Shown: in pieces, positions 548 through 44,384 of the stretch
How positions within the stretch are numbered: the first letter of the stretch is position 1
Layout of the letters: every line of letters starts with the position of its first letter
Notes under the pieces: model-generated
Seen by the model: only the letters and a program-made list of their open reading frames with translations
Told to the model about the DNA's origin: nothing
Databases searched by the model: none
Virus record (IMG/VR): IMGVR_UViG_3300042549_003496
Location: 1 to 45,859 of that record
Source of the DNA: a virus
DNA: 45,859 nt
Reading direction: 5' to 3' (one strand)
Made by a program: the position numbers and the translations under genes

Positions 548-718
548 AGAGTAACTGCGGTAACCCCGCCACTTGTTTGTGTGTTTGAAACAAACGCTCA
601 CGGATTGTATCTAGCAGTCCGTACTAGATTGGAGACTACCTGTTGCAACGGGTGTTATAAAGACGAGTCAAGTTGTTCGCTGATAATTTGGTGTAACGAC
701 ATTGCCCCTCCAACCCAC
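548..718. other. Non-coding stretch with several small hairpins
   Basis: No convincing gene lies here. Visible inverted repeats are ACGGA...TCCGT (600-622), TCTAG...CTAGA (609-627) and ACCTG-TTGCAA-CGGGT (639-654) nested inside GACT...AGTC. A possible promoter, TTGAAA, 17 nt, TATCTA, would start an RNA near 620. It may be a structured untranslated region or small RNA; no known family is recognised. Confidence 0.35.
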
Positions 719-748
719 TTTTCTACCACCCCCCCTACCGAGTAAAAG
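719..748 (+). promoter_or_regulatory. Repeated promoter-like element, copy 1
   Basis: -35-like TTTTCT (719-724), 18-nt spacer beginning ACCA plus 7 C, -10-like TAAAAG (743-748). The gene ATG follows 20 nt later, leaving a predicted leader of about 14 nt. Confidence 0.65.
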
Positions 749-768
749 GGAAGAGTAACACCGAACCA

Positions 769-1122
769 ATGACCACCCCCCGATACATCACCTGCTACGA
801 AGTCACCCGACTTTGCTACTCCCCCGCTGAGGGCGGTTGCTACTACGACCACCACCGCTTTGTCGGTTCCATGTCCGTAAAGGATATCCCGCTGGGTAAT
901 GAGTGGTGGCAAAATGCCTCCAACAAAACCCTCGAAGAGGCTGGTGAGAGTCTGTTTCGTGACCAGTGCGGTGCGGTATTTGAGGATGATACCATCGAAC
1001 AATGGGGCAACACCCGAAAAGTGCGTGGCATATCATCCGCAAGCCCCGAGGCTACCCACCGTATCTACCTCGAAGAGGTGCTAGGCGAAAACACCACCAT
1101 TAAAGTGCCTGTTTACGAATAG
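769..1122 (+). CDS. Hypothetical cassette protein (117 aa)
   Basis: A small soluble protein starting M-T-T-P-R-Y-I-T-C-Y-E-V, with aromatic and Cys residues early (CYSPAEGGCYYD). This N-terminus resembles small phage proteins of unknown function that I know only from memory. No catalytic motif is visible. The next promoter copy starts 7 nt after its TAG stop, so it is probably a single-gene transcript. Function unknown. Confidence 0.75.
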   Translation: MTTPRYITCYEVTRLCYSPAEGGCYYDHHRFVGSMSVKDIPLGNEWWQNASNKTLEEAGESLFRDQCGAVFEDDTIEQWGNTRKVRGISSASPEATHRIYLEEVLGENTTIKVPVYE

Positions 1123-1129
1123 CCACCGC

Positions 1130-1159
1130 TTTTCTACCACCCCCCCTAACCAATAAAAC
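1130..1159 (+). promoter_or_regulatory. Repeated promoter-like element, copy 2 (leaderless type)
   Basis: -35-like TTTTCT, ACCA plus 7 C, -10-like TAAAAC ending at 1159. The ATG begins 6 nt later at 1166, where a normal start point would fall, so the mRNA is predicted to be leaderless. Confidence 0.7.
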
Positions 1160-1165
1160 GAAAGT

Positions 1166-1390
1166 ATGAAACAACCCCCTGTCACTGTCCAGTGTTCGGC
1201 ACCCACCCAAATCGGCTATGATGAGTACATCCTCATCGGCTTCGACCAGAATGAGTGTGCCATCATTAATGAAGGCGATTCTATTGGCATGCTTGATTTG
1301 AAGTGCTATTGCCCTAGGGCTGACCGCCCCGCTGGCTACTCGTTCAAGCACGATGGTGTGTGGTATGAATTCACCCACTCGGTAAAGTGA
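1166..1390 (+). CDS. Hypothetical cassette protein (74 aa)
   Basis: A compact soluble protein whose alternating hydrophobic pattern (YDEYILIGFDQNECAIINEGD, read as two short strands) suggests beta structure. No family is recognised. The start is fixed by the promoter copy whose -10 ends 6 nt upstream; no Shine-Dalgarno can exist in so short a leader. A minus-strand open frame of 92 codons over the same bases is rejected as a shadow. Confidence 0.75.
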   Translation: MKQPPVTVQCSAPTQIGYDEYILIGFDQNECAIINEGDSIGMLDLKCYCPRADRPAGYSFKHDGVWYEFTHSVK

Positions 1391-1392
1391 GG

Positions 1393-1422
1393 TTTCCTAC
1401 CACCCCCCCTAATCCATAGATT
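1393..1422 (+). promoter_or_regulatory. Repeated promoter-like element, copy 3
   Basis: -35-like TTTCCT, ACCA plus 7 C, 18-nt spacing, -10-like TAGATT (1417-1422). The preceding gene stops at 1390, 2 nt before the element. The ATG is 20 nt downstream, after a short ACCAAC-type leader. Confidence 0.65.
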
Positions 1423-1442
1423 GAAATAGTACCAACAAACAA

Positions 1443-1640
1443 ATGCGAAACAACTTCTATATCGGCTCTGAACCAGTCAAGCGTAAGAATGTGTGGATTG
1501 TGACCATATATCTGCACACCTCCGAGAATCCCAAGGGATTGATTGATAGCGAAAATTCCTTCAAGACAAAGCGTGATGCGAAACTATTCATCGCTGGCTG
1601 GCTTGAATTCCTTGAATGCTACAAGCGTATCGGAAACTGA
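1443..1640 (+). CDS. Hypothetical cassette protein (65 aa)
   Basis: A basic small protein (VKRKNVWIVTIYL, SFKTKRDAKLFIAGW) with a pattern of strands then a helix, reminiscent of small nucleic-acid-binding folds but without a diagnostic motif. The leader is C/A-rich with no Shine-Dalgarno. It is followed 5 nt later by a second gene with no promoter copy of its own, so the two form a two-gene transcript. Confidence 0.7.
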   Translation: MRNNFYIGSEPVKRKNVWIVTIYLHTSENPKGLIDSENSFKTKRDAKLFIAGWLEFLECYKRIGN

Positions 1641-1645
1641 TTGAT

Positions 1646-1840
1646 ATGAAAGTTGCTCAATACAATAAATACCTGAACCAATACTGGAATTACAGGGACA
1701 TGGAATGGGTGGGCGATATTAACGATGCTACACATATTGATTTTGAACATGTATGCCTGCATTATACGCTATTGGAACCGCCGCTGATGTGGCAGAAGGT
1801 TCCCGATGCTGGATTGGCTACCACCCCCCCTAACCAATAA
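1646..1840 (+). CDS. Hypothetical protein ending inside the next promoter element (64 aa)
   Basis: ATG 1646 (MKVAQYNKYLNQYW) is preferred over an upstream in-frame start at 1616 that would overlap the preceding gene. The product is aromatic-rich with no recognised family. Its last codons are translated from the next promoter-like element: the spacer encodes the tail ATTPPNQ and the TAA stop is the first half of the -10 hexamer TAAAAC. This is one of three genes whose stop codon comes from a -10. Confidence 0.7.
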   Translation: MKVAQYNKYLNQYWNYRDMEWVGDINDATHIDFEHVCLHYTLLEPPLMWQKVPDAGLATTPPNQ

Positions 1841-1843
1841 AAC
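1814..1843 (+). promoter_or_regulatory. Repeated promoter-like element, copy 4 (leaderless; contains upstream stop codon)
   Basis: -35-like TTGGCT, ACCA plus 7 C, -10-like TAAAAC (1838-1843). The TAA of the -10 ends the upstream gene, and the next ATG starts 6 nt after the -10 at 1850. Confidence 0.7.
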
Positions 1844-1849
1844 GATTGT

Positions 1850-2152
1850 ATGGAAACCACCAACGACACCCCCGACATCACCGCCTCCCGTTACTGCGTC
1901 ATGGGGCCGAGCATCTCCTTCAACGCCGACTACATCACCCGTAGCGGTCACTACCGCCTCATCCCCCACCCCCACCGCTACCGAAATGAGGGCGAATCTA
2001 ATGAAGAATTCGATGCGTACATCGACAGCATCACTCTCATGCACCTCCCCGATACCTCCGAGGGCTTGGACAAGGCCGTAGAGGTGATGCGGATGTGGAA
2101 CACTGTGGGTGCCACTTGGGACGACTCGACTACCACCCCCCCTACCGAGTAA
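1850..2152 (+). CDS. Hypothetical cassette protein (100 aa)
   Basis: Predicted to be translated from a leaderless mRNA (-10 ends 6 nt before the ATG). The sequence has a beta-like N-terminal half and an acidic helical middle (NEGESNEEFDAYIDS, then GLDKAVEVMRMW). Its tail STTTPPTE is encoded by the next promoter spacer, and the TAA stop is the start of that element's -10. No family recognised. Open frames on both other strands here are shadows of the C-rich composition. Confidence 0.75.
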   Translation: METTNDTPDITASRYCVMGPSISFNADYITRSGHYRLIPHPHRYRNEGESNEEFDAYIDSITLMHLPDTSEGLDKAVEVMRMWNTVGATWDDSTTTPPTE

Positions 2153-2155
2153 AAG
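2126..2155 (+). promoter_or_regulatory. Repeated promoter-like element, copy 5 (contains upstream stop codon)
   Basis: -35-like TCGACT, ACCA plus 7 C, 18-nt spacing, -10-like TAAAAG (2150-2155). The TAA ends gene 1850-2152. A 35-nt C/A-rich leader (AGTACCAACAACCCACC...) precedes the next ATG. Confidence 0.65.
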
Positions 2156-2190
2156 GGAAGAGTACCAACAACCCACCACCCATAACCGCC

Positions 2191-2376
2191 ATGCCCTACG
2201 AAGTCCGCCCCATCACCTCCTTCCCCCAAACCGACCCCATCTGGGCGAATCCCAATGCAGGTGCATGGGTCATCTACGAGACCACTGACGGCTACATTGC
2301 CGATTCCTGCAAGTCCCTGACCGCCGCCGAGGCCAAGTGCAACCGCTGGAATGAGGACACCTCCGAAAACGAGTGA
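2191..2376 (+). CDS. Hypothetical cassette protein (61 aa)
   Basis: The frame opens upstream, but ATG 2191 (MPYEVRPITSFPQ) is the only start downstream of the promoter copy at 2126-2155, so it is preferred. The short protein reads as two strands and a helix (GAWVIYETTDGYIADSCKSL, then TAAEAKCNRW). That pattern is common in small phage proteins; no family is assigned. The leader lacks G-rich ribosome-binding sequence. Confidence 0.65.
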   Translation: MPYEVRPITSFPQTDPIWANPNAGAWVIYETTDGYIADSCKSLTAAEAKCNRWNEDTSENE

Positions 2377-2406
2377 TTCCCTACCACCCCCCCCATCCCT
2401 TAATCT
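2377..2406 (+). promoter_or_regulatory. Repeated promoter-like element, copy 6
   Basis: -35-like TTCCCT directly abuts the upstream TGA stop (2374-2376). ACCA plus 8 C, 18-nt spacing, -10-like TAATCT (2401-2406). The ATG lies 34 nt downstream. Confidence 0.65.
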
Positions 2407-2440
2407 AATCTTATCACCAACCGCTTCACCCCCAACACAT

Positions 2441-2740
2441 ATGAGCAACACCCCCAAGCCTGACATCGTCAAGTACCACCACATCAGCCACTACAACTAC
2501 TCGAAATCCTTCTTCGTGGGCATCGACTGGGACTCCGCCGCCGCCTTTCTCGCCGCCTACCCCGCCAAGGAGTTGACCTCGGATGAGGGCCGCTCCCGAG
2601 CCATCGTTCAGACCACGACCACGCCCCACGGCTATGTGAGCCGCAAGGTCATGGACATCAAGGATGTCGTGGAAATCGCCCAGCAGGAAATCGCCAATTA
2701 CCTGCCCAAGGCCGACCCCCTGCCCACGAAGGCCGAGTAG
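2441..2740 (+). CDS. Hypothetical cassette protein (99 aa)
   Basis: ATG 2441 (MSNTPKPDIVKYHH) is chosen because it lies downstream of the promoter copy; the in-frame extension to 2351 would be read from within the previous gene. The product carries many aromatic residues early (HISHYNYSKSFFVGIDWDS) and a helical C-terminal half (DIKDVVEIAQQEIANYL). No known domain is recognised. The stop abuts promoter copy 7. Confidence 0.7.
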   Translation: MSNTPKPDIVKYHHISHYNYSKSFFVGIDWDSAAAFLAAYPAKELTSDEGRSRAIVQTTTTPHGYVSRKVMDIKDVVEIAQQEIANYLPKADPLPTKAE

Positions 2741-2770
2741 TTGGCTACCACCCCCCCCACTGGGTAATGT
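2741..2770 (+). promoter_or_regulatory. Repeated promoter-like element, copy 7 (drives a non-coding stretch)
   Basis: -35-like TTGGCT, ACCA plus 8 C, 18-nt spacing, -10-like TAATGT (2765-2770). It is the only copy not followed closely by a convincing gene. The next 165 nt are a structured sequence. Confidence 0.65.
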
Positions 2771-2776
2771 GGGGAT

Positions 2777-2934
2777 GTTGATTGAAAGTTGATTGCATGA
2801 CGGGATGCCTGACCAGTACGGAAGGCAGGCATCCCACCCCCTTTCCCTTTGGGATAGGAGCGTAACCTCCCCCTCGCCTATTCATCCGAGTCTCGGGAAC
2901 ACCGCTCACAAAGCACCGCTCCTATCCCATCCCC
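2777..2934 (+). ncRNA. Candidate structured non-coding RNA
   Basis: A transcript from copy 7 would start near 2777. Two strong stems follow: GGGATGCCTG (2802-2811) pairs perfectly with CAGGCATCCC (2826-2835), and GGGATAGGAGCG (2851-2862) pairs perfectly with CGCTCCTATCCC (2917-2928) around a 54-nt loop that contains CCGA-GTC-TCGG. A 22-codon frame from ATG 2797 exists but is crossed by the first stem and shows no protein-like pattern. No U-rich terminator is seen, so it could also be a long 5' leader of gene 2999-3283. No known RNA family is recognised. Confidence 0.5.
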
Positions 2935-2964
2935 TTTCCTACCACCCCCCTCCCTCGGTAAAAC
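2935..2964 (+). promoter_or_regulatory. Repeated promoter-like element, copy 8
   Basis: -35-like TTTCCT, ACCA plus 6 C, 18-nt spacing, -10-like TAAAAC (2959-2964). The ATG is 34 nt downstream after an AGTACCAACAACCCATCACC-type leader. Confidence 0.65.
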
Positions 2965-2998
2965 GAAGGAGTACCAACAACCCATCACCCACCACATC

Positions 2999-3283
2999 AT
3001 GCCCCCCGCCACCCGCTACGCCATCACTGTGCCCGTCACCCTCGCCGCTGGACAAGTCGTCCGCTTCCTGCCCAACACCCCCGACACCTGCACCTTTGAC
3101 ACCCACGATGCGGCCCGCAAAGCCCTCGAAAATGTATACGATGCCCTCATTGCCATGGGTGAACCCCACTCCGCCATGGCGATGCAAATCACCCCGTATA
3201 ATGTCATGCTTACGGGTTCCGATGGGCAACACCTGCCCATGCTCCTCCCCGCCAATCACATCCGCTTCTCCTCGGTGGGCTAG
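2999..3283 (+). CDS. Hypothetical cassette protein (94 aa)
   Basis: A small soluble protein with a beta-rich start (YAITVPVTLAAGQVVRF), a central helix (DAARKALENVYDAL) and a beta-rich end. No family is recognised. A 228-codon minus-strand frame over this locus is rejected as composition-driven. The TAG stop at 3281-3283 is the first half of the next element's -35-like hexamer TAGACT. Confidence 0.75.
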   Translation: MPPATRYAITVPVTLAAGQVVRFLPNTPDTCTFDTHDAARKALENVYDALIAMGEPHSAMAMQITPYNVMLTGSDGQHLPMLLPANHIRFSSVG

Positions 3284-3310
3284 ACTACCACCCCCCCCAC
3301 CCCGTAGATT
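3281..3310 (+). promoter_or_regulatory. Repeated promoter-like element, copy 9 (-35 holds upstream stop)
   Basis: -35-like TAGACT (its TAG ends gene 2999-3283), ACCA plus 8 C, 18-nt spacing, -10-like TAGATT (3305-3310). A 39-nt C/A-rich leader made of repeated CCACCCA units precedes the ATG. Confidence 0.65.
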
Positions 3311-3349
3311 GGAAGAGTACCAACAACCCACCACCCACCACCCACCCAT

Positions 3350-3643
3350 ATGGCCCGCCTCAACACCCCCATCGCCTTCACCGCCTATCAGGCTTTCCCC
3401 GCCACTGACTCTCCCGAGTTGCACCACCGCCAGTTGCCCAAGGGCATCACTGACAGCGTGAAGCGGGAGTGGTACCGAACCGAGGGTGCCCGACTCCAAG
3501 CCCTCGCCATCGATGCGGGGAAGCAGGCCGAGGCCACTGGGTCTGCGTACTTCGCCTCCCTCGAAAGCACCCTTATCCACGAAGCGAAGCAGTGCGTACT
3601 TGCCTCCAAGCGGAAGAATGGGCATGTGGAGCGGGCTTCCTGA
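3350..3643 (+). CDS. Hypothetical cassette protein (97 aa)
   Basis: Starts MARLNTPIAFTAYQ; the second half is a long helical stretch rich in Arg, Ala and Glu (VKREWYRTEGARLQALAID and on). No family is recognised. The TGA stop (3641-3643) lies inside the next promoter element. Overlapping frames of 60-73 codons on either strand are shadows. Confidence 0.75.
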   Translation: MARLNTPIAFTAYQAFPATDSPELHHRQLPKGITDSVKREWYRTEGARLQALAIDAGKQAEATGSAYFASLESTLIHEAKQCVLASKRKNGHVERAS

Positions 3644-3666
3644 CCACCCCCCCCACCCAGTAGATT
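3637..3666 (+). promoter_or_regulatory. Repeated promoter-like element, copy 10 (leaderless type)
   Basis: -35-like TTCCTG, ACCA plus 8 C, 18-nt spacing, -10-like TAGATT (3661-3666). The upstream TGA stop overlaps the element, and the next ATG is 6 nt after the -10. Confidence 0.65.
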
Positions 3667-3672
3667 GAATCC

Positions 3673-3744
3673 ATGCTCCTATCCCTCCTGACCACCGCCC
3701 TGTTGTTCACATGCATCGTCACCCTCATCTACACTACCCGTTGA
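3673..3744 (+). CDS. Leaderless 23-residue hydrophobic peptide
   Basis: This very short frame encodes a peptide that is almost entirely one membrane-spanning segment (MLLSLLTTALLFTCIVTLIY, then TTR). Support comes from position: its ATG lies exactly 6 nt after a -10 hexamer of the repeated promoter, as for other leaderless genes here, and nothing else is encoded before the next copy. It may insert in the inner membrane; function unknown. Confidence 0.55.
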   Translation: MLLSLLTTALLFTCIVTLIYTTR

Positions 3745-3887
3745 GCGGAAACGATTGAGGCGAAACCTAGCCACCCCGCCCCGCTCCCTCCCGTAGGCAC
3801 CTACCCACCCCCGCCGCTCCGCCCCTCTCGTAGGCACCCACCCCCTCCTCATCAGGAGGTGCCGACCACCCCACCGCCGACCACCCC
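3745..3887. other. C-rich non-coding stretch with a compound hairpin
   Basis: No gene is supported. A short repeat GTAGGCACC occurs near 3793 and 3831. The second copy starts a hairpin: GGCAC (3833-3837) pairs with GTGCC (3859-3863) around an inner stem CTCCT-CATC-AGGAG (3845-3858). It could act as an mRNA 3' end or as part of a small RNA. No U-run follows. Confidence 0.35.
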
Positions 3888-3917
3888 TCGACCACCACCC
3901 CCCCTATCCCGTAGATT
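3888..3917 (+). promoter_or_regulatory. Repeated promoter-like element, copy 11
   Basis: -35-like TCGACC, ACCA plus 7 C, 18-nt spacing, -10-like TAGATT (3912-3917). The ATG is 47 nt downstream after a leader consisting almost wholly of C and A. Confidence 0.65.
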
Positions 3918-4193: not shown

Positions 4194-4209
4194 GGGGTCA
4201 GGTGACCCC
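4194..4209 (+). terminator. Stem-loop after the cassette array, possible terminator
   Basis: GGGGTCA and TGACCCC can pair 8 nt after the last cassette stop codon. No U-run follows, so intrinsic termination is uncertain. Confidence 0.35.
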
Positions 4210-4250
4210 TCCTCCCTACCCTGTACCCTGTCTAAAAAGAGACACGATGG

Positions 4251-4284
4251 TAACAGTGGATGGGGAGGGGGGGGTTCACTGTTA
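4251..4284. other. 8-bp stem with a G-quadruplex-capable loop
   Basis: TAACAGTG (4251-4258) is the exact reverse complement of CACTGTTA (4277-4284). The 18-nt loop contains GGGG, A, then eight G, enough for a four-stranded G structure on the plus strand. It sits between the early and late regions. Confidence 0.55.
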
Positions 4285-5015: not shown

Positions 5016-5950
5016 TGGCCCAAAAGCCTCAAGAGCCGAAGCCTGCATTGGTTGACCCAATGATTAGGAATGCCATGTTTATGAATCCGAATGGCATAAG
5101 GTCTGGTGATGCCATCAGAAGCATGCAACAGAACGCATTTCAGACAAACATTGGCAATCCAGTGTTTAGTCCATCTCTTCCTAACGACTTTGACAGTAAG
5201 GCTTTAATGGAAGTCATTAAGTTTGGCGGAGACCGTCAAGGTATTGCTAATACCGCTGACGATGTGTATGCGGCGGGTGAGCATGATGAGGCTATGCGTT
5301 TTGCTGTTGCTGATGGGCTTATTTCCCAAAGCAAAATGGACGAAAGAGTCAAGGGTCGTGACATTGCCACAACATACTGGCTTGAAGAGGTAAAGCGTGA
5401 TAAGGCTCTAAAAGCATCTACAGACAAATACAAGCAAGACCTTGAACTTGCTGAACTTAAGGGCAAAAGTCAAGACAGAGACATGAACATTGACGACCCT
5501 AGAAAGGTTGGTTGGAAACTTGCAAAGAATAAGATTAGAAAGAAATTCTTTGGACTTCCAACAAGCGTTGACGATGCGGCAAAAGACGCACTTAGAGTTG
5601 TTGGCGTTTCTGGTAAGTTACTTTCTGGATTTGGCAACCTTACGGACTTGACAGTTACTGCTGGCAACGCTGAAATAGGAGGCCCAGCATGGAGGGAATC
5701 CCAAGCACGAATGCAGGCAGAAGAAGCGGCAAGACCAGAATGGGAAAAGGGATTGTCTAGGTCTGGCACTAGAGGTCCGCTAATTAGTTCTTTTATTGAC
5801 AGAATTGCTAAGGATTCTACTCCATTGTCAAACGCCGAGTGGATTTCTACGCAAAGCAATCCTGAACTTAAGAAAGAATACCAAACTAAGGCACAGGCAA
5901 CTACCAAGGCTATTAATTACGACCCCAAGAGAAGAGTGCCTATTGCTTAA
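5015..5950 (+). CDS. Unknown late protein upstream of the large terminase (311 aa)
   Basis: ATG 5015 (MAQKPQEPKP) is preferred over a GTG two codons upstream, because it gives the TAATG overlap common in this genome. The product is soluble, with a Pro-rich N-terminus, a charged helical centre (TDKYKQDLELAELKGKSQD) and an Ala/Glu-rich third quarter. No family is recognised. Its place before the terminase suggests a packaging or minor virion role. It ends in TAATG shared with the terminase start. Confidence 0.7.
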   Translation: MAQKPQEPKPALVDPMIRNAMFMNPNGIRSGDAIRSMQQNAFQTNIGNPVFSPSLPNDFDSKALMEVIKFGGDRQGIANTADDVYAAGEHDEAMRFAVADGLISQSKMDERVKGRDIATTYWLEEVKRDKALKASTDKYKQDLELAELKGKSQDRDMNIDDPRKVGWKLAKNKIRKKFFGLPTSVDDAAKDALRVVGVSGKLLSGFGNLTDLTVTAGNAEIGGPAWRESQARMQAEEAARPEWEKGLSRSGTRGPLISSFIDRIAKDSTPLSNAEWISTQSNPELKKEYQTKAQATTKAINYDPKRRVPIA

Positions 5951-7569
5951 TGGATATTAACAAGATTGAGTTGACTCCTCATCCAGTCATTGTTGCTCCG
6001 TCAATAGAGGAGATTAAAGGTCTTGTTGAAAGAAATGGCGTTGATGCGGTTGCGGAACTTTTGCAACTCCGTGAAGATAAGATACTTGCGGAAAAAATGG
6101 ACCCATATAGGCATGGGTACGAACCTCAACATTGGAAGGATGCTGATGCAATTCTTTCAAGAAAAAACGAAGTTCTAATCCTTGGTGGAAACAGAGCGGG
6201 AAAAACAGAGTGGGCCGCAAAAAGAGTAATTCAAACTTTAGTAAATACCCCAGACGCAAGAGTCTGGTGCCTGCATACAACCAATTCTTCGTCAATTCAG
6301 ATGCAACAGAATGTGCTTTGGAAGTACATGCCACCTGAATTAAAGAACGCAAAGAAGACAAAGATTACAAACATATCCTATAGCCAGAAGAATGGCTTTT
6401 CGGATAACACATTCATTTTGCCTAATCGTTCCCAGTGCTTCTTTATGAATTACGCACAGGACAAAAAGGTCATTGAAGGTGGTGAGGTTGACCTTATCTG
6501 GTGCGATGAACTTGTCCCTCTTGACTGGGTTGAGACTTTACGCTATCGTGTTATCACAAGACGAGGTAAATTGGTTATTACATTTACGCCAGTTCTAGGC
6601 TACAGCCAAGTCGTCAAAGATTATGTTGCTGGTTGCTCGTTCAAAAAGACCTTAAAAGCGTCACTTCTTGACGAAAAGCGTGTTCATGTCAGCGGATGCC
6701 CCGCTGGTCACATGCCTTATTTGGCTGAATCCTTTAATTCCAACTCTGGAGTCGTCTGGTTTCACTCCCAACTCAATCCTTACAACCCATTTGACCAGTT
6801 GGCGGCAACACTTGAGGGCAAAACCTCAAATGAAGTCAAAATCCGAGCATATGGATGGGCAGAAAACACGGTTGGCTCGCAATTCCCGTCTTTTACAGAC
6901 CAAAACATTGTAAAAGAAGACCAAATCCCGACAGAAGGCACAAATTACATGGTTGTTGACCCCGCTGGAGCCAGAAATTGGTTTATGTTGTGGCTTAGAG
7001 CGGCAAAAGATGGAAATCTCTATGTTTATAGAGAATGGCCCGACATTTCTAATGGAGAATGGGCTGTTGTTGGCGAAAAGAGCGATGGCAAGCAGGGCTC
7101 TGCTCAAAGAAACGGTGCTGGTCGTGGTATTGACGATTATAAGGAGTTAATTCTCGAACTTGAGGCTGGCGAACAAATAGCCGAGCGTTACATTGACCCT
7201 CGGGCAGGCGGTACGGAGTCAATTGGCAGAGATGGAGGCACAAGCCTCATAGAACTTCTTGACGGCGGAGATAAGCCTATGTACTTTGCACCAGCCGCTG
7301 GCGTTCACATCGAACAAGGTGTTGCAATTATAAATGACCTGCTCTTTTATAACCACGGAGAACCTTTGACATCAATCAATCATCCAAAACTTTATGTATC
7401 AGAAGCCTGCAAAAACCTCATATTCTCACTCAGAGAATGGACAAACGCCGATGGGGAAAAAGGTGCATGCAAAGACCCAATCGACTGCCTCCGATACCTT
7501 TCAGTTATGGAGCCCGTCTATGAAGGAGGCGGTATTTTCAAAGCCCGTGGAAAATCGCATTCTTATTGA
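5950..7569 (+). CDS. terL: Terminase large subunit
   Basis: The packaging motor that cuts and pumps DNA into the prohead. The N-terminal ATPase has a Walker A GGNRAGKT (residues 79-86) and a Walker B-type VDLIWCDE (180-187). The C-terminal RNase H-like nuclease shows Asp in VVDPAG (about 335-340), a second acidic site in YIDPRAGG (about 414) and a late Asp in KDPIDCLRY. The length of 539 aa is normal for the family. It starts by TAATG overlap with the preceding gene, and a small HTH gene overlaps its 3' end. It is expected to dock on the portal encoded next. Confidence 0.93.
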   Translation: MDINKIELTPHPVIVAPSIEEIKGLVERNGVDAVAELLQLREDKILAEKMDPYRHGYEPQHWKDADAILSRKNEVLILGGNRAGKTEWAAKRVIQTLVNTPDARVWCLHTTNSSSIQMQQNVLWKYMPPELKNAKKTKITNISYSQKNGFSDNTFILPNRSQCFFMNYAQDKKVIEGGEVDLIWCDELVPLDWVETLRYRVITRRGKLVITFTPVLGYSQVVKDYVAGCSFKKTLKASLLDEKRVHVSGCPAGHMPYLAESFNSNSGVVWFHSQLNPYNPFDQLAATLEGKTSNEVKIRAYGWAENTVGSQFPSFTDQNIVKEDQIPTEGTNYMVVDPAGARNWFMLWLRAAKDGNLYVYREWPDISNGEWAVVGEKSDGKQGSAQRNGAGRGIDDYKELILELEAGEQIAERYIDPRAGGTESIGRDGGTSLIELLDGGDKPMYFAPAAGVHIEQGVAIINDLLFYNHGEPLTSINHPKLYVSEACKNLIFSLREWTNADGEKGACKDPIDCLRYLSVMEPVYEGGGIFKARGKSHSY

Positions 7570-21109: not shown

Positions 21110-24100
21110 ATGCCCCAAGCAGAAGACTCCTCTTACGAAGAGGTCGCACCCCAGACTGAGAATAGCGGTGGTGCCAAGATAAATACAGGCGAGTATGCCT
21201 CCGCCGCAAGCGTCTCTAATGTTCCTTCTCGGACAAGCAAGGCTCAGCGTGGCCCAATGTCTGAAGAGTCATTTAGAGCCGCACTGCTTAAACCTCTTAG
21301 TGGGGAAGAAGTCGCCGTTAAGATGTCTGAACTTAACAAGAATGAAATTGAGATTAATAGTTCTACGATTTCGCTTGAGGAATTTCAGGTTTACGATGAA
21401 TGGCGTAAGAAACAGCATTTTAATTTCATGGGTGCTGTTGGTGATGGCGTTATTCAAACAGTTAAGGATGTCGGCGGTGGGCTTATTTCTGCCGCTACAG
21501 ACTGGAAGAAGTTGGCACTAGGCACTGGCATCTCGCTTGCTACTGGCAATCCTCTTCTCGGCTTTGGCATTGCCTATGGTTCGTCTCTTGCAGAAGGCTT
21601 TGCCAGAGGAACCAGAGACCTTGGTGGTCTTGCCGTAATGGCGGCTAATCATCCTGACAGCCCTATCTATAGAATGTTCGTTAATCCGAGCAATGATGTT
21701 AATCAGTCCTATGAAGACTTCCTTACGCTTGCTAGATGGAATGCTAGGTCTGAACAGATTTTAAACGGCAAAGCCAATGCGTTTATGCCTGAGCGTGAGA
21801 CTTACGAAAAACTTTTCGGAAAGGCTTTCGGAGGACAGATTGACGATTTTATTGGTGTTAACAGAGAACTGGCAACAGCATCCTCTTATATTCTTGACCC
21901 TACATTGTTTCTTACGATGGGCGGGAGTTCGGCTGGAAAGGCTGGAGCCAAGGCTATTGCAGATGCTACTGCCGCCGCCGCTCTCAAGACTGGCAATGCT
22001 GGAAGTGCCGTTGCTACAGCCGTAGCCGCAAGAGCATCAAGAAATGCCGTCAAGTCCAGATTCCTTGAGTCTGTTGGCCTGAATATGTCTAAGTTTAGCG
22101 ATGCAATTACTAAGCCCATGGAGGCTGGTTACAACAAGGTTGAGCAAATGCTTTCTAACGCCATTGGCGGACCTGTTAATATCAGAGGCAAGAGTGCAAG
22201 AACGACAAGACCTGCGGTTGGTCATGCTCCCACTAGCCTTACACACGCTGTCATCGGGTCCATCGGTGCCTATTCCCTGTTTTCTATTCCATATGCTATC
22301 CCGATTGCTAGTGTTTATGCTGGTCTAAAGGGCATTGGCATTGTTGGCGAGAAACTTGCGGCTCATGGAGGCATGAAAGTTGGTGCCGCCGCAGGAGACG
22401 CAATTGGAAAGCGACTTGCCAACTCTGGAGCATTGAGCATCTACATGAAGGATGTCAGTAAGACAATGTTGCATGGCTCTCTTTACGGAGGTGTGATTGG
22501 TGGCATTGCTGGTGGCGAAGAAGGAGCGGCTGGCGGTATTGGTACTGGTATTGCCCTAGGTGCGATTGGTCATAATGCCGCATTACTGGAGGGAACTGTG
22601 TCTGGAAAGTTTGCTAAGATTAGTACAATGAAGGAATGGGAGGCTCATCATAAGGACTTAAAGGATGCAAATCACATTCTCAAGAGCCAGAGAATGAATG
22701 AGTTCATTAAGGACATCCAGCGTGACCATGGTGAGGATGCTGGACTCAGATTGATGAGCCAAATGCTTACGCTTGAGAAATCTGAGAATACAGCAGTGAC
22801 CTACATGACATATGAGGACATTGTTAAGTTGCTACATACAGACACCAAGTTTTTCACTGTTGACCCTGCTACTGGCAAGAAAACTTACAACGCAAACGGA
22901 ATTGAATTTGAAAAGGCAATCACAGCCAAGGAGGCTGGTGGTCAGGGATGGAATGGAATGTTTGTTAAGCACGATGCCGAAGGCAAGGAACATGCACATG
23001 GCTTCCACATGTTTACTGATGGAGAAAGCAAACAGACTCATGTTATCATAAACATCGATAACTACAGAATGTTGAAGGACGACATGGGTAATCTCGTCAA
23101 GCGTAAGAAGATGGGCTTTCTTCGTGATGAAAACGGAAACCTAATTACGCATCAGGTAACAGAAGAGTTTGAAACATCTAGAACTGTCATGGAAACAATT
23201 GACATTCCTAGGTTTGAAACAATTGAAACGAAGGTCGAGGGCGAGCGTACTAATGTTAATGTGTTTCCCGCTGAAATTGCCAAGGGCACATCTGAGACAA
23301 CTCAATACGGCATTCCGCTTAAGGGCAGACTTGCAAGAGAGGTTGCCCAGCCGAAGGTAAGCCAGCCTATGATTGGGCCTATGCCACCTGTCAGCAAGTT
23401 TGAAGGCAGACGAGTAGTTGACAAATTGCCATATCCCAAGAAGGAAACCGTCACAGGCACAAGACCTGTTACAAAGCCTCTTGTTGGTGAGGTTATGGCT
23501 CCCATTGCAATTAGGTCTGAAACCGCCCCCCTCGGAGAACTGTATCATGCTATGAACTATATTCAGCGTAAGGCTGGATACGGTCAGGACATTGTTTCCA
23601 ATGTTAAGAACTGGCTTACTGGCAAGGTTGAAAGCGGTGGTGCATTCGTAGACCGAGCCGCAACTGTTAAATTTATGAATCAGGCTTACGACAAACTTGT
23701 CGGAGTCAGAAGAAATACCCAGACCGCACTTGACTGGAAGCAGGCAATTGACGGGTATGAAAAGACTGGTGAAATAACCCCCGAAGTGTCTAGTGCCTTT
23801 GATGTTTTTGCCGAGGAACTCGGTGAGGCAATGTTCTTAGGTTGGGAAAGTGGAAAGCCCTTTGACTACATTCTTAGAGGTGGAGACCTTGGATTTGTCA
23901 GAAATCTTGTTGAAGGAATCAAGGACGAGTTTGCCAAGCGGTCTCTGACTACTGCTACCAATTACGGAGCAGATGTTAACACCAAGGAGTCGTTCTTGGC
24001 TTGGTTTAAAAAGAACAAGGATGGCGGCAAGTTTAGGTTTGACAAGGGAATGGAGCAGGCGTTTACCGACCTTGTTAGAGTCTACAGCCAAGAAGGCATG

Positions 24101-27100
24101 AAGGATGCCAACCACAGACGAGTTGACATCAGTGCGTTGCAGGGTGCGTCTCTCCTTGCTCATGCTAGACAGTACGGATACGAAGACAGACTGAATGTTT
24201 CTGATGACGGTCAGACTGTTACCATTAAGCCTGACGAACAGTACAACAAGGAGATGGCGACAAAAGGTAATGCCTTGGTCCTTGAACTTGCAGAAATGGC
24301 TGACCGAAATGCGGCTGACGCTAACGGCCTAGACTTCTATGTCACAGATAAGGAACCTGCTCCGTATGACGGAATCAGAACTCACGATGACGGAACCCTT
24401 GACTCCATTGCTGGACGAAACGCCAATGCCGCTGGCAATGCTGGAGGTTTCCTTTTCCAGAGCCCCGACTTCCAAGACATGGGCGTTGGTCTTGATGACA
24501 TTGTTGCAAACCAAATAGCCAAAGCAAAGCGTGATGGTCTATACGGAAATCGTACCTCTAACTTCTTTGGTGCTAGAGGCCGTCCTAGAACTACCCCTTC
24601 TGGTAAGTTGGGGGTCCAGATGCGTGAAGCCATGCAGAATGGTCACACGCTTATATTCAGAGGCATCCCTACAGAAGCCGCTTTTAAGATTATCGAGAAG
24701 CACATTCCCAAGCATGTCGCCCAGAATGTCAGAAGACTTGCTCCTATCATTGTTGACGGAGGCATCTCTCAGCCCAATGTACTTAAGGCTTACTACCACG
24801 GCTTCGAGCATCACGACATTGATGGCACCAAGTTGACGAGAGGTAAGCATCACTTTGAGCCGAGACTTCTGAGTTTCGTGCCTTATGACATGGAGTTCAG
24901 AATCACTCTCAAGAATGGCAAGCATCCTGAGAAGCCTTACACCAAGGAACACTTTACATTCAATGTGAACGGTGCGGATGTTGACGCTCTGAATCGCCGC
25001 ATGCATAAGATTTGGAACAACAGCCCTGAACTCCAGAAGCAGTATGACCATATCCAGCAGTTCATGGAGCATGTTTTTGAAACTGTTGACCATTACAGCG
25101 GCACTGGAACGATACCTGCAACCAAGTTCTTTGGCGATACGGCTGAAGCAAGAACTCGCAGAAAGTATGTTTGTGCGGCTATTGGTGCAGTTCCTAACAA
25201 GGAGGTTAAAGGCAAGTACTCTGTTCCCAGCGTTGAATGGCATGATGCACAATTCAGAGATAGAGGAGCAGAGCAGGATAGTGTCTGGGGCAAGTTCTCC
25301 CTAGCCAACCTTTCCAGTGTTGAGGCTCATTCAGGCGAGCGTATGCGTATGCGTCTTAATGAAAAGACCTACCGCAGAGCAATGGTTCCTACGCCTGTCT
25401 CTGATACTGCCAGAGAAAGAAGCGGTGCCAGCATGTTCAGAGAGCGTGATGGCTCCGAGCGTATGTATCAGGCTCCTGACTATGAAGGCAGAGATGACTA
25501 CTGGCGTGGGCAGACACAGAAAGACCCGTTTGTTAGCCTAGACGAAAGCGGCCTTAAGATTAGAAAGGCTTCAGCCATAATTGACGGAGAGGCCAGATTC
25601 TTGCCTCAAGAACAGGGAGCAATAACTTGGTCTCAGATAGGTCATGGATGGGGCTTCACTGATACAATTACTGGAAATGAAATGCCTAGCGAAAGACCCT
25701 CAAATAAAAAGCAGGGTCTTTGGTACGCTTCCGCCGACTCCTTTAACGAGCCTGCTGGTAAGGTGATTAAGGGTGATGTTGAGAACTACGATACACATGA
25801 AGACTGGTTTAGCGAACTGATTAAGTCCAGAAAGTATACACCGTATTCGTTTAAGGGAAGAATTGACCTTCCGCTTTACAGAAACGGAGAACTTATTCAT
25901 AGGGGCAGAATGAGCATTGCTGACAATGTTGAGGGTGGTGTTGGAGAAGACGCTTACCACAGAAACATCAACATCAATGATGTTAAGAAGATGAAGGAAA
26001 AGGTAGCCAGTCAATACGGCATTAAGGTCGAGGACATTGATGCCTATTATTTTGGCAGAAAGGATGATGTTAGAAACCAGTTTGGTTACAGCAACAAGGA
26101 CAGGCTTCCTATCATGTTCCAGAATCCTGAGGATGGAATGATGCATCCTGACGATGAGATTCCTGTCGCTATGAACGACATCAGAACTCACCATAGGCTT
26201 ACATCTTCTGACGAATTTAAGGGCGAAAAAGCCAAGCGTGATATTAACAATACATCCGCACTTCTTAAGAAACTTGACGGAATGGTTGAGTTTCAGCAGA
26301 AGCGTAAGAACGAAGTGTTTTTCCAGCCCGCTGAAACATATGGTGCCAAGAATCAGGCCGAGGCTGAATTCCTTAAGAGCAATTACAAGTGGGCTATTGA
26401 GCAGGGAGATGTTTATCTTTCCGAGGCACTTATAAGGTTTGAAAGATTCCTTGAGCGTAACTCTGGAAAGACAGTAACAAATGTTCGGTATTCCCTAGAT
26501 GAGTTCATGGCGGCTGGCGGAAGCATGGACCAGTACAACACAAGATTTAAGACTGGAGAACCTGTAATGGTTGTTGGTACACACGGAACTCCAAGCATAG
26601 AGTTGCTTAGAACCAGAACATACTCTACCGAAAAACTTGGTGGAAATACTAGTGCTGAATCGGCTGGAAGAGGTACATTCCATTCTGGCAGACAATCAAC
26701 ATCTCATACATATGGTCTAGACCCAGTTAAGGAAAAGAACGACTTACTGATGGCTCTTGCTGGCGTTCCTATGGCTGAGTTCTTTGACCCAACATTTAAG
26801 GAATATTGGCCCAAGGATAGAGATGGTAGAATGAGATTGGTTCTTAATTCTATACAGGCTATAAAATCTACTCCAGAAACAAATATTTTAAAGCAAAAAG
26901 CATACGATTTGGTCAAGAAGATGTTCTTGGATGTTGAGAGAGTTGGCTCTGTTACTGAAAAATGGAGCAACGCTTTGACCAACAACCTTGAACGAAATAG
27001 ATACTTCTTTGATTATCTTGAAAAGACATTCCCCAGATACGATGAGGTAGTGCTTCAAAATCTTCAGGGCGAATATAAGACAAAGATTCAATCTAATGTT

Positions 27101-30100
27101 AGCAGAGCCATTGTGGCTCTTAAACAACAAACTCAAAACAAGCCAATTAAGCAGGTAGCGGCACAGTTGCAAACAATGATTGAAGTTAACGACATACCCA
27201 AGGATGTTGGCAGAAAACTCCAAGTTGAAGTGAACAAGGAAATTGAAAGACAGGCTCAAGGGTTTGACTTGGAAACCCTACAAGAGGAATACCGCATGAG
27301 CATGCAAGACCAACTGGAACTTACAAACAAAATCAAAGACAGTAAGAGCAAGATTAGGGCTTTATTTGAAGACACATTTAAGCAGATGCAACTGTCTAGC
27401 ACTAGACAGATGAGAACTATTGTTGGTTTTGCCAATCCTCTTGTTTATGACTTTAAGGGGGAAATGTACAGAGAGCAAACTTATGCTTCTATAATGAAGC
27501 AAGCGAAGGAGGCTGGTCACGATGGCGTTATACTGTTGAACACATTTGACGGAGGCATTATAGTTGATAACATATATGCAACATTGAGAGGAACAGAGCA
27601 GACGCACCTTGCAAATATTGATACGACCATAAGCGGAGAGTCTGTTCCTCGTAATTCTGGTATCAAGGAAGGTTCTACCTTCTTCCAGTCTCCAGATGAT
27701 GTGTTGCCTGTTGGTGCATTTGGACCTAACAATCCCCATACGGTTGAAATTTCCAGAGGACTAAAATCTAAACTTGGAATGACAACTGGCGATGGCAGGT
27801 TTATCTTGAAGTTGAATAAGGACAAGTCTTTCAAGATTGGTATGGCTTATGATGAAATGAAGCATGAGCCCGAGAACCCTAAGGTCAGAGCGGCGTTTAA
27901 GGCTTTTGCCGATGAGACGCTTGAGCAATATAATGCTATCATCGAGGCTGGGTATAAGCCTGAAATGCACTACTCCAGCGAAGAGCCCTACGGCTCCAGC
28001 AGAGAGGTTATAAAGGCTATCAGAGAGACCAAGAGCCTCAAAGTTCTTGCAACTGATTTCAATTACGGGGACAGAAAGGTTACGCCTGAAGACATCAAGA
28101 CCAATAATCTTTTGGCGATGTCTGGCTTTAAGGATGTCAATGGCAAGGAGATGCGTATTAACGACATCTTTAGATTTGTACATGACTTCTTTGGTCACAG
28201 CGAAAGAGGAAACTCCTTTGGAGAACTCGGAGAAGAAAACGCATGGGATGTTCACGCTAGAATGTATAGCCCTCTTGCAAGACGGGCCATGACATCTGGA
28301 ACCAGAGGCCAGAACTCTTGGGTCAATTTTGTTTACGAACCCAACATCCAACTGAACAAGCAACGGGCTATTGTCAGAAAACTCCGTGAGGCTGGTCAAA
28401 AGGAACAGGCAGATGCTCTTGCGGCTACTCTTGGTCAGACCAGATTTGCCGACCAAAAGATTGGTCTCCTTCCTGAATGGGCATCTAAGTTGGATGAAGA
28501 GATGAGCCCAATGGAAAAGCAGATTTACGGTCAGCACATTACCTCTGATGGTAAGTTTGGTCTTTACCAGAACCCAGAAACTGGTGCCGAAAGCATTGGC
28601 ATGCCTACCCCTGAGCAGTTTGTCGAGTGGGCAAAGGCGGCTAGAGCCTCCACGCCGTGGGGTTCTTCGGTGGAAGTTAAGGATGTCAATGGCTACAACG
28701 GATACGAATTATATGCGGCTGGAGATGGCAGAGCGGTTCTTTCTATCTCTCCCGATGGCGAACTTGGAAGCGTTGTAAAGGGCAAGCATGGCAACTCGCA
28801 CGATGTGGATGCCCTTGTTCGCATGGCTCTTGCCACTGGCAAGGTAAAGTGGCTTAACGCCTTTGACACAAGACTGCCCGATATGTATCAGGCTTACGGC
28901 TTCGAGGCTGTTGCTAGATTGCCGTTTGTCGATGACTTCAGACCCTTTGACTGGGACTACGAACAGTATAGCAAGTTCAACAATGGTCGTCCAGATGTTG
29001 TTTTCATGGCCTATGTTGGAGACAAGGCTAGACCCTATCAGGAAATTAAGAATCTGATTCCTACGGTTGCTGAATATGATGATGCGGTAGCAATGACCAA
29101 GCAAAGAAACAAGGCCAGCGGTGGAGCCCTGTTCCAGAATCCTGACGACATCAGCCTTGATACAATTGACTTTAGCATCTTTGACGAAAAAACACAGAAG
29201 GATGTTGATTATATGCGTAGAATCTTGGACTACGCTAACCATGTTAGAGAAATTGACGCTCAGGTTAAGGCTGGAAACTTACAGCCGCACCAAAAGTCTG
29301 TAATGCTTACCAAGTGGTTTGACAAGCATTTTAATGAAACTAGAGTTAGAGAGTCTGCGTATTCTTGGGGTGAATGGTACGATGCAGAAAGTAAGCAGAA
29401 GATTAAGATTGCTGATTTTACACAACAACATCTTGACAATAAGGTTCGTGCAAGAATCAAGGATGAGGTTATTAAACTTCGCAGGTTTACAAACGATGAG
29501 CCTGCTAATATTGGCAAGGTTAAAAGCCTTCAGAAGACAAGACAAAGACTTCTCTTTAGCGAAAAATCTAAGGGTCGTACTTGGTTTGAAAGTCTATCTA
29601 CAAAGGAACAACAGGCTCTTCTGAATGTATTTGAAAGAGAGCAAGAAAGAAGACAGGGAGTTGAACAGAAAGAACTCGAATCTATGCAGGCTGTTGAAAT
29701 AGATACTACAAGTGAATTTATCCCTGAGTCTGAAGGTTCTAGAAAAATGATTAAGAATCCCTACCTTGATATGACTCAGGAGGAAGCAATGAAAGCCAAG
29801 TTCCCTAAGTTGACAAAGGAACAGGCTATCGCTGAAGCCGCAATTAGAGCAAAGTTGATAAATGATGAAATTTACATCATGGGCATTACGGATAAGCCTA
29901 TAAACTGGGAAGTTGAAGACATTGATGTAATCAAAAAGAGCCTAAAAGAGCGTTTTGCAGACAAAGAATTTTCTCTTTCTGACGATGAAATTGAATTAAT
30001 GGCTATCGAGGAACAGCAATCTCAAGTTCGTCTTAAGGAAACAACTGCGGCATATGAAAGCAAGCGTCAACCTAAGGCTGACAAAATTGTTGCACATGTT

Positions 30101-42022: not shown

Positions 42023-42095
42023 TGGCGTGTAACTCAGCGGTTAGAGTGGGCTCTTTATAAGGGCTAAGTCGAGGGTTCGACTCCCTCCACGCCAA
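42023..42095 (+). tRNA. tRNA-Ile (anticodon TAT)
   Basis: Acceptor TGGCGTG/CACGCCA, anticodon loop TTTATAA giving TAT, T arm GAGGG-TTCGACT-CCCTC. It reads ATA. The anticodon stem has two G-T pairs. Promoter copy 12 starts 5 bases after its end. Confidence 0.85.
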
Positions 42096-42099
42096 CCAT

Positions 42100-42129
42100 T
42101 TCCCTACCACCCCCCTTTCCAAGTAAAAC
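42100..42129 (+). promoter_or_regulatory. Repeated promoter-like element, copy 12 (leaderless type)
   Basis: -35-like TTCCCT, ACCA plus 6 C, 18-nt spacing, -10-like TAAAAC (42124-42129). The ATG starts 6 nt later at 42136. Confidence 0.7.
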
Positions 42130-42135
42130 CAAACC

Positions 42136-42492
42136 ATGAATTACGAATTTGAAGACCTCGAAATTAAACACGGCTCATCCACCATCATTGTCTCTGGTAG
42201 GGCCGAGTATGAAATAGAAGACGAAGGCATTGGTGGCTACGAGTACTGGGGTGCTAAAGGCACCGACCACCAGTATGTTGCACGATTCGTTGACGCTACC
42301 ATTACGAATTACGAACTTGAAGTAACTCAAAAATCCTCGCCTATCCAAGGTGTTACCGAAACAGACCTACATGCATTTGAAAACATTGTCGTAGATATGC
42401 TTAACGACAATCAAGACCTATGCCTTGAACTTTCTGAAGACGGTGCCGCCGATGAAGATGAACCGCCCTGCGACCCTGATTATCTCGACTAA
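42136..42492 (+). CDS. Hypothetical acidic cassette protein (118 aa)
   Basis: Strongly acidic, beta-rich at the start (HGSSTIIVSGRAEYEIEDEG) with an acidic tail (EDGAADEDEPPCDPDYLD). Predicted leaderless start from the -10 6 nt upstream. It begins a four-gene transcript coupled by TAATG overlaps. No family is recognised; high acidity is seen in DNA-mimic proteins, but that is only a possibility. Confidence 0.7.
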   Translation: MNYEFEDLEIKHGSSTIIVSGRAEYEIEDEGIGGYEYWGAKGTDHQYVARFVDATITNYELEVTQKSSPIQGVTETDLHAFENIVVDMLNDNQDLCLELSEDGAADEDEPPCDPDYLD

Positions 42493-42725
42493 TGAAAAAG
42501 CAAACCTACACCCTACACCCTGTTCGTTTCTACTGGAACGACACTCCAGACGAAATCCTTGACGGCATCATTGCTGTTAATATGTTTGTCCCCGCTCAAG
42601 ATGGGGATGATGACAACCTTACTTTGTATAAGTTTTCTCAAGACGAGTGGACTAAAATCCAAAACGCCGTTGCCAATAGGCACGAATACGAAACCGACAC
42701 TTTTACTATTACCTTCCGAGAATAA
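42492..42725 (+). CDS. Hypothetical cassette protein (77 aa)
   Basis: Acidic small protein with an aromatic beta-rich start (TYTLHPVRFYWNDTPDEIL) and a helical segment (FSQDEWTKIQNAVANR). Starts by TAATG overlap and ends by TAATG with the next gene. No family is recognised. Confidence 0.7.
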   Translation: MKKQTYTLHPVRFYWNDTPDEILDGIIAVNMFVPAQDGDDDNLTLYKFSQDEWTKIQNAVANRHEYETDTFTITFRE

Positions 42726-42976
42726 TGCCCTATAATCCAATGTATGAAATCCTTCTTGGCAAAAGCCTCGATGCACTTGCACAATGCGACAAGGTAATCG
42801 CAGAAAAAATCTTCACTCTTGAACTTACCAACAAGCGTCTAGCCGAAGGGGTAAGCGTTACTTCTAGCAACAAGGTCGGCGGTATCGACCAGTTGGTAAC
42901 GCAAATCAGCGAACTTACTAAACTTAAGCGAGAGATTGAAGTAATCCTTAAACAAGGCAACAGCCTAGATATTTAA
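42725..42976 (+). CDS. Small helical protein (83 aa)
   Basis: Almost wholly helical with a coiled-coil pattern (EIKL-like heptads in VTQISELTKLKREIEVILKQ). TAATG-coupled to its neighbour. No family is recognised. Confidence 0.7.
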   Translation: MPYNPMYEILLGKSLDALAQCDKVIAEKIFTLELTNKRLAEGVSVTSSNKVGGIDQLVTQISELTKLKREIEVILKQGNSLDI

Positions 42977-42977
42977 C

Positions 42978-43256
42978 ATGTCCCTAATCCAATACAAAAA
43001 AGACGGCACCCCTGACTTCGTACTGCTTGCCTGTATGAATTTCCTATCTTCTTACCCCGACTGTTGGGATGGTGAGCAAATCCTTGACCACATTGAGTCC
43101 GAAGGATTCTGCCCTTCTACTGACAAGCGTGTTGCAGTGTGGGCCGCTGTTGAAAACAGCAATGCAGAAGAAATCCTAGAATCAATTTTGGCCTTGGCAG
43201 ATTGCTTTGAGTCTGCATACAACGCTGGTCGGGATTCTGCAAAAACCTCGGCTTGA
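42978..43256 (+). CDS. Hypothetical cassette protein (92 aa)
   Basis: A Cys-containing alpha-helical protein (FVLLACMNFLSSYPDCWDGE; ESILALADCFESAYNAGRDS). It starts 1 base after the preceding stop. The TGA stop lies in the -35-like TTGACC of promoter copy 13. No family is recognised. Confidence 0.7.
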   Translation: MSLIQYKKDGTPDFVLLACMNFLSSYPDCWDGEQILDHIESEGFCPSTDKRVAVWAAVENSNAEEILESILALADCFESAYNAGRDSAKTSA

Positions 43257-43282
43257 CCACTACCCCCCCTAACCCTTAAAAC
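43253..43282 (+). promoter_or_regulatory. Repeated promoter-like element, copy 13 (-35 holds upstream stop)
   Basis: TTGACC (its TGA ends gene 42978-43256), ACTA plus 7 C, 18-nt spacing, -10-like TAAAAC (43277-43282). The ATG is 8 nt downstream, so the mRNA is nearly leaderless. Confidence 0.72.
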
Positions 43283-43290
43283 GAAATCCT

Positions 43291-43797
43291 ATGACCAACC
43301 CAGAACAAACCCCCCCAGAAAACCTGCCTGCTGTTACCCACACTGTTAAGGTTCTCACCCGTAAGCATCACCTCAACTGCATCGAAAAGCCCATCACCAA
43401 GGAATACGCACAACAACTCTGGTACATCGTTTCTGCGGCCTGCGAAGGCGGTCTCGGTGGCGAATCTTGGGGCTGGTCTACCAACCGCAAGTCTGGTATC
43501 GGCGGCTGGAAGGCGTATAACGAAGCCGACCAGAATAATAACCACGACACCATCTATGTTGACCTCAAGTTCGTCAACCATGAAGATGATGAAGACCTGA
43601 CGGGCTACATCCGTGTTAATGCGGAATTCCTGCACAACAAGATGATTAAGTTCGTCAACGATGAAGACCAGCCCGCTTGGCTCCGCAAGCACTACGCCGA
43701 GTTCCTCGTCACCCGTGAAACCCCCGACAACGCCGATGCCGTCACTGCCGATGCCCTTATGCAGTATGCATTCGTTGACGAAATCGTCTTCGGTTGA
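43291..43797 (+). CDS. Hypothetical cassette protein (168 aa)
   Basis: One of the larger cassette products. A Pro-rich start (TNPEQTPPENLP), a Gly/Trp-rich centre (GGLGGESWGWSTNRKSGIGG) and an acidic beta/alpha second half (TIYVDLKFVNHEDDEDLTGY). No family is recognised. Its TGA stop lies inside the next promoter's TTGACC. Confidence 0.75.
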   Translation: MTNPEQTPPENLPAVTHTVKVLTRKHHLNCIEKPITKEYAQQLWYIVSAACEGGLGGESWGWSTNRKSGIGGWKAYNEADQNNNHDTIYVDLKFVNHEDDEDLTGYIRVNAEFLHNKMIKFVNDEDQPAWLRKHYAEFLVTRETPDNADAVTADALMQYAFVDEIVFG

Positions 43798-43823
43798 CCA
43801 CCACCCCCCCTACCCAGTAAAAC
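43794..43823 (+). promoter_or_regulatory. Repeated promoter-like element, copy 14 (leaderless; -35 holds upstream stop)
   Basis: TTGACC with the upstream TGA, ACCA plus 7 C, 18-nt spacing, -10-like TAAAAC (43818-43823). The ATG is 6 nt after the -10, a full example of stop, promoter and start in 39 bases. Confidence 0.75.
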
Positions 43824-43829
43824 ACAAAT

Positions 43830-44273
43830 ATGAAAAACCTAATCGCCAAATGGCTCCTCGGTATCACCAAAGAGCAACTCGTTCAAGTGCTTGTGGATAA
43901 CATTGAACTCAAGACCAAAATTGAGACGCTCGAGTCCGAAGAGGACGAAAAGTATATCCTGCGGTCTGACTTCGACCCTGATGATTACGACTTCGACCCG
44001 CTCCGTGATTACGACTTCAGCGAATTCCTCACCAGCGAAAACATGGGTGATGTGCTTGTCGATAACGAGGTTGTTCAGTCTGGAGACCTAGACCAAGCGT
44101 TGGACGGCTACGCCACGACTGAATATGTTGACGGCGAAATCACCAGCCTGAAGAATCGCCTCGATGCCCTTGAGGAAAAGGCGAAGCCCAAGCGTAAGAA
44201 GCCCTTGACTGATGCGGAGCAGATGGTCAAAGACCACATCGAACGCATTAGGGGCAAGAAAAAGGACAAGTAA
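43830..44273 (+). CDS. Hypothetical cassette protein, coiled-coil and acidic (147 aa)
   Basis: Helical start (KNLIAKWLLGITKEQLVQVL), a coiled coil (LKTKIETLESEEDEK), a Tyr/Asp/Phe-rich acidic repeat (DFDPDDYDFDPLRDYDFSEF), then a second helical segment (EITSLKNRLDALEEKAKPKR) with a basic tail (RGKKKDK). Predicted leaderless start. Possibly a scaffolding or DNA-binding accessory protein; unassigned. A terminator follows. Confidence 0.75.
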   Translation: MKNLIAKWLLGITKEQLVQVLVDNIELKTKIETLESEEDEKYILRSDFDPDDYDFDPLRDYDFSEFLTSENMGDVLVDNEVVQSGDLDQALDGYATTEYVDGEITSLKNRLDALEEKAKPKRKKPLTDAEQMVKDHIERIRGKKKDK

Positions 44274-44378: not shown

Positions 44379-44384
44379 CCAAAT

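Follow-up and report, generated by a model that had tools for sequence, protein, structure and literature searches.

The gene-free stretch at positions 2,741 to 2,964 has, in our judgement, about an even chance of being a derived copy of a structured RNA that related phages carry in the same slot of their early gene cluster (hereafter the slot RNA), furnished here with its own putative sigma70-type promoter and giving rise to an early RNA. The window, that is, the whole stretch of DNA analysed, comprises 45,859 bases and is identical with the entire IMG/VR virus record. Its first 158 bases (1-158) repeat its last 158 (45702-45859) with two mismatches, which makes it probable that the genome is nearly complete and circularly permuted; the linear label of the record would then be a consequence of these two mismatches. 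As the terminal overlap implies circular permutation, the cluster of small genes would run from 42.1 kb across the end to 4.2 kb. The cluster is closed by a long C-rich/G-rich inverted region (4198-4281), and like regions in relatives L014 and L016 precede a T-run, so that a cluster-end terminator is likely there. Relatives of the terminase (window 5950-7569) were found among species genomes on two contigs in Verrucomicrobiota bins (Pedosphaera 52%; Opitutae 36%), which suggests that phylum as a lead to the host, virus contigs being sometimes mis-binned. The window also contains a single open frame of 3974 residues (21110-33034), which takes up more than a quarter of the genome.

A first-pass annotation had proposed in this stretch a phage non-coding RNA, which might act as a decoy, antisense or regulatory RNA, driven by its own copy of a repeated promoter element (copy 7), with two long perfect stems and no gene. 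The pairing of the 10-bp stem is exact as described, and the second stem, given as 12 bp (2851-2862 with 2917-2928), is perfect and in place but is really 13 bp long (Table 1). Such stems are indeed unlikely to arise by chance: among 5000 dinucleotide-preserving shuffles of 2741-2964 (224 bases), none gave two stems with one of at least 12 bp, while 75 held a stem of at least 10 bp and 7 a stem of at least 12 bp. Moreover, only five perfect stems of at least 10 bp with a loop no longer than 80 nt occur in the whole 45.9 kb, both of these included, and stem 2 is the longest of the five. The RNA fold of 2763-2945 reaches -67.1 kcal/mol (z -3.96), and stem 2 on its own gives z -5.63. The reverse strand folds as strongly (z -4.45), and the fold energy is therefore silent on the strand; since a coding control window of similar length (one such window) reached z -3.16, more weight goes to the perfect stems than to the energy. 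Neither scanning IMG/VR for the exact pattern of stem 2 nor a blastn search against phage records found a homologue of the stems, so that the two stems offer no covariation of their own. An intrinsic terminator was considered and rejected, as the scan found none at the stems and the tails after the two hairpins, ACCCCCTTTCCC and TCCCCTTTCC, have no T-run.

Table 1. Positions of the features discussed (window coordinates unless a relative is named)
Feature	Position	Strand	Remarks
Upstream gene g2441	2441-2740	+	best match to profile of genes upstream of the relatives' RNA
Promoter copy 7	2741-2770	+	-35 TTGGCT 2741-2746, 18-bp C-rich spacer, -10 TAATGT 2765-2770
Inverted repeat	2755-2774		CCCCAC-TGGGTAAT-GTGGGG across the -10 of copy 7
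Stem 1	2802-2811 with 2826-2835	+	GGGATGCCTG with CAGGCATCCC; perfect 10 bp, 14-nt loop
3' tag 1	2832-2845	+	TCCCACCCCCTTTC, common to the relatives' slot RNAs
Stem 2	2850-2862 with 2917-2929	+	TGGGATAGGAGCG with CGCTCCTATCCCA; perfect 13 bp, 54 nt enclosed
3' tag 2	2925-2938	+	TCCCATCCCCTTTC, loose tag form, runs into the next -35
Next promoter copy (copy 8)	2935-2964	+	TTTCCT-N18-TAAAAC, before gene 2999-3283
Downstream gene g2999	2999-3283	+	best match to profile of genes downstream of the relatives' RNA
Slot A, A-type sequence, probable family member	628-721	+	P1 628-634/708-714; UUAUAAAGA 655-663; P3 ~670-677/695-703; tag 709-721
A-type sequence of L091	10798-10912		
Slot RNA of L012	5980-6105		
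Slot RNA of L014	2802-2930		
Slot RNA of L016	937-1064		
Slot RNA of L091	12795-12946		
Second promoter form	38402-38373, 39918-39889, 37002-36973	-	
Second promoter form	40410, 41012	+	
Phage tRNA-Ile(UAU)	42023-42098		just upstream of early cluster; complementary segment 42051-42060

The absence of a gene behind copy 7 was borne out as far as it is testable, the approximately 165 bases after the element containing no credible gene. A long ORF (2793-3461) crosses the next promoter and overlaps g2999 and g3350, two genes for which relatives have counterparts; nothing matches the upstream portion of the ORF. A small protein gene was likewise rejected, as neither a 22-aa ORF (2797-2865) nor the 2793-3461 frame has a convincing homologue in the relatives. 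The ATG 4 nt from the copy 7 -10 opens a frame of only five codons. A third gene-free gap in the early region (3745-3888) shows repeats of the motif GTAGGCACC along with a GGCACC/GGTGCC hairpin, and its overall fold is not unusual (z -0.5).

Among 80 relatives, which were gathered via the terminase, a non-coding gap of 130-170 nt follows a gene of one family in four independent phages (L012/L013, L014, L016 and L091). The order within this slot is CATAAG..GGGAT, a hairpin, TTATAAAGAG, a helix, CACAGATAG, the partner strand of the helix, GTCCC and a C-rich tag. The family folds as a three-way junction, P1-P2-UUAUAAAGA-P3, closed by P1' and followed by a 3' tag TCC..CCCMCTTTY, where UUAUAAAGA is a conserved single-stranded segment between P2 and P3, and P3 of the relatives carries an internal GACACAGAUAG segment. 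L091 has a second copy of the RNA in another slot; the corresponding slot of the window (548-722, slot A) contains TTATAAAGA, and a probable family member was located there. Six sequences allow both P1 and P3 to be drawn, with 12 of the 15 pairs changed on both sides; 95.6% of the cells were paired, against 58.8% in shuffles and 31-44% in slid controls, and none of 500 shuffles was as good. This test was based on a skeleton alignment in which the helices were placed by hand beside the conserved segments, one per sequence, with one bulged base omitted in L012 and one in the window copy; both choices favour pairing, and the true covariation support is therefore somewhat less than these figures. 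Hand placement was used instead of a covariance model because MAFFT alignments left P1 and P3 out of register. The slot A copy is the weakest of the six, its own fold giving a z of only -1.32 (616-711).

The pattern TTATAAAGAG..CACAGATAG, searched in all of IMG/VR, recovered four independent true members, and the remaining matches were attributable to chance; a near-identical pattern had no match among 84,980 species genomes of bacteria and archaea. The L091 RNA had no Rfam match even at E up to 5, and the comparisons with Rfam 15 as a whole (gathering threshold; E up to 5) gave five tRNAs and noise only, the matches in the early region of the window being chance ones. No earlier description was found in the literature searched, which included few subscription papers. 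The slot RNA is apparently a structured phage RNA family that has not been described.

Several features connect the stem region with this family. In three relatives, the covarying RNA lies between counterparts of g2441 and g2999, the same two genes which enclose the stems; in L016, the upstream gene is the counterpart of g2441, with a counterpart of g1166 downstream instead. Among the 22 window proteins, g2441 was the best match to the upstream-gene profile (E 0.0023, 30 columns only) and g2999 to the downstream-gene profile (E 1e-4, 31 columns), these synteny matches coming from short alignments. In addition, the relatives' P1' plus tag, written strictly as TCC-N(2-5)-CCC[AC]CTTT[CT], occurs at only two places when both strands of the 45.9 kb are counted, and each of the two gene-free slots has one of them, compared with chance expectations of 0.04 for the early cluster and 0.003 for the stem slot. 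In L014, L016 and L091, the RNA is marked on the plus strand by the full tag; the L012 RNA has a loose form. Both hairpins of the window start with GGGAT and end with ATCCCA(C/T)CCCC(C)TTTC. The stem region thus shares with the slot RNAs the gene slot, a closing helix of GGGAY/RUCCC type, the 3' tag and the coding strand, but it lacks UUAUAAAGA, CACAGAUAG and the P2/P3 junction, in place of which stand two tandem hairpins and a promoter. No sequences of the family are more strongly conserved than UUAUAAAGA and CACAGAUAG, the latter inside P3; the former is not in 2741-2964 and is found in slot A, and the latter is missing from the two A-type sequences as well.

Ordinary membership by sequence was rejected: only 20 of 2000 local-alignment shuffles scored as well as the stem region, but so did control windows taken from this early region (112 for the stem region, 111-117 for the controls), and the profile HMM of the family does not find the stem region (E 34). 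With slot and tag shared, the overall similarity not significant and the core missing, the stem region is read as a derivative of the slot RNA rather than as a member.

Copy 7 is one of 17 copies of an element which score 34-44 bits with a position matrix built from 16 of them, and which all lie in the early cluster (719-3917 and 42100-45685), on the coding strand, with -35 and -10 exactly 18 bp apart. The -35 has drifted in the window (TTGGCT, TTTCCT, TAGACT), and the spacer ACCACCCCCC is nearly constant; relatives have at the same places TTGACA-CCCCCCTCCC...-TAAAAC or TATAAC with N18 spacing, and L016 has TTGACC-ACCCCACCCC...-TAAATT. The element reads as a sigma70-type promoter, with hexamers that stand before genes at a fixed spacing and are canonical in the relatives. 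It differs from that type in that the C-rich spacer of the window is conserved more strongly than the hexamers, which suggests an extra recognition factor, perhaps encoded by the phage. Copy 7 fits the set in spacing and spacer and has a usable -35, but its -10 is weak (three of six bases of TATAAT) and among the weaker of the 17 copies, and a generic promoter scan misses copy 7; the predicted start lies at about 2776-2778. In six copies (1130, 1814, 3637, 42100, 43794 and 44349), the ATG of a gene lies 6 nt after the -10, an arrangement which is also found in L012 and L014, and this short distance suggests that many early messages are leaderless. Variants on the minus strand, TTGACTACTACCCCC..TATAGT, stand directly before minus-strand genes, and a second promoter form, TTGACTACYACCCCC..TATA(G/A)T, occurs a few bases before recombination and replication genes. 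A frame for a 23-residue hydrophobic peptide (MLLSLLTTALLFTCIVTLIYTTR, 3673-3744), which might be a tiny membrane protein, begins 6 nt after another promoter copy.

The proposal of a non-coding RNA with its own promoter holds up in part, in that a promoter-type element and a gene-free, folded stretch lie in the relatives' RNA slot, while the promoter itself is peculiar to the window genome. Both the relatives' RNA and that of slot A of the window directly follow the preceding gene with no promoter between, and read-through plus processing is therefore as likely a source of the RNA as the copy 7 promoter. The same arrangement bears on a possible but rather unlikely reading in which the hairpins are a cis-acting operon element in a read-through mRNA, where they would shield the g2441 message at its 3' end, cut it there or set it apart from the g2999 promoter, with no independent RNA. 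Stem 2 with its tag abuts the next -35, and the want of a terminator-like site at the stems makes read-through likely, which both fit a cis element; however, the copy 7 promoter sits between g2441 and the hairpins, and the conserved single-stranded core of the relatives exceeds what a stability hairpin needs. An RNA function of either kind has to be weighed against the inverted repeats acting as DNA, whether as protein sites or a cruciform controlling copies 7 and 8 or as a replication or recombination site. The equal folding of the minus strand agrees with a DNA function, as does a third inverted repeat that overlaps the -10 of copy 7, but the stem arms are absent from the other promoters. 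Since the relatives keep their helices paired despite changes in sequence and, moreover, conserve a single-stranded core, the RNA reading is favoured and a function as DNA appears improbable.

It is also quite improbable that the region is a functionless remnant, in which the slot RNA was lost and decayed sequence or a recent palindromic insertion (stem 2) was left behind. The conserved core is missing, as a remnant would predict, and one copy of CCCCTTTCC flanks stem 2 on each side, as an insertion might. Long stems would soon break under decay, however, and the 13 perfect pairs, a promoter element that is almost complete and the two retained copies of the tag point to maintenance.

According to the preferred reading of a derived slot RNA, the copy in the window genome would have lost its junction core and become two tandem perfect hairpins, each ending in P1' plus tag, behind a sigma70-type early promoter. 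An early transcript would start near 2776 and be processed or end near 2940, yielding a stable RNA of approximately 165 nt, or would read through into gene 2999. As a stable RNA of the early phase, it would most likely use its folded ends to bind a partner, either a protein or another RNA. The sequence analysis itself shows the stems, the promoter-type element, the synteny, the shared tag and the covariation in the relatives; transcription, a stable product and common descent with the slot RNA are what we infer.

A more specific role for the relatives' RNAs is conceivable. UUAUAAAGA(G) is exactly complementary to the phage tRNA-Ile(UAU) over the whole 7-nt anticodon loop and two to three bases of its stem; slot A aside, this tRNA is the only place in the window with the complementary 9-mer. 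The same tRNA sequence is present in the L012, L090 and L091 records, and in L012 and L091 the 10-nt form also fits the phage's own tRNA; in more distant relatives, the tRNA is present and the slot RNA was not detected. A chance match of nine bases is not rare (approximately 0.35 expected in 92 kb of two strands), but this one falls exactly on the anticodon loop and is therefore worth testing. It would be a long shot, suggested by complementarity, that the slot RNAs form a new class of phage RNA that senses or ties up the phage's own tRNA-Ile(UAU) by pairing through the 9-10 nt UUAUAAAGA(G), with the stem region a variant that has dropped out of this partnership.

The slot RNA is of interest as a candidate for an undescribed family, with a covarying architecture, a fixed address among early genes and a remodelled form in the window genome, and metatranscriptomes offer a means of testing it. 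A further link is to a promoter system in which the spacer is more conserved than the hexamers and messages are seemingly leaderless. Phages carry several folded, non-coding RNAs, such as GOLLD, ROOL, the pRNA of phi29 and the RNAs of the T4 tRNA cluster. As the present phage encodes a large terminase of the ordinary kind, a packaging RNA of the phi29 type is not expected. Compared with GOLLD and ROOL, the stem region is far shorter, and it matches nothing in Rfam at a useful score.
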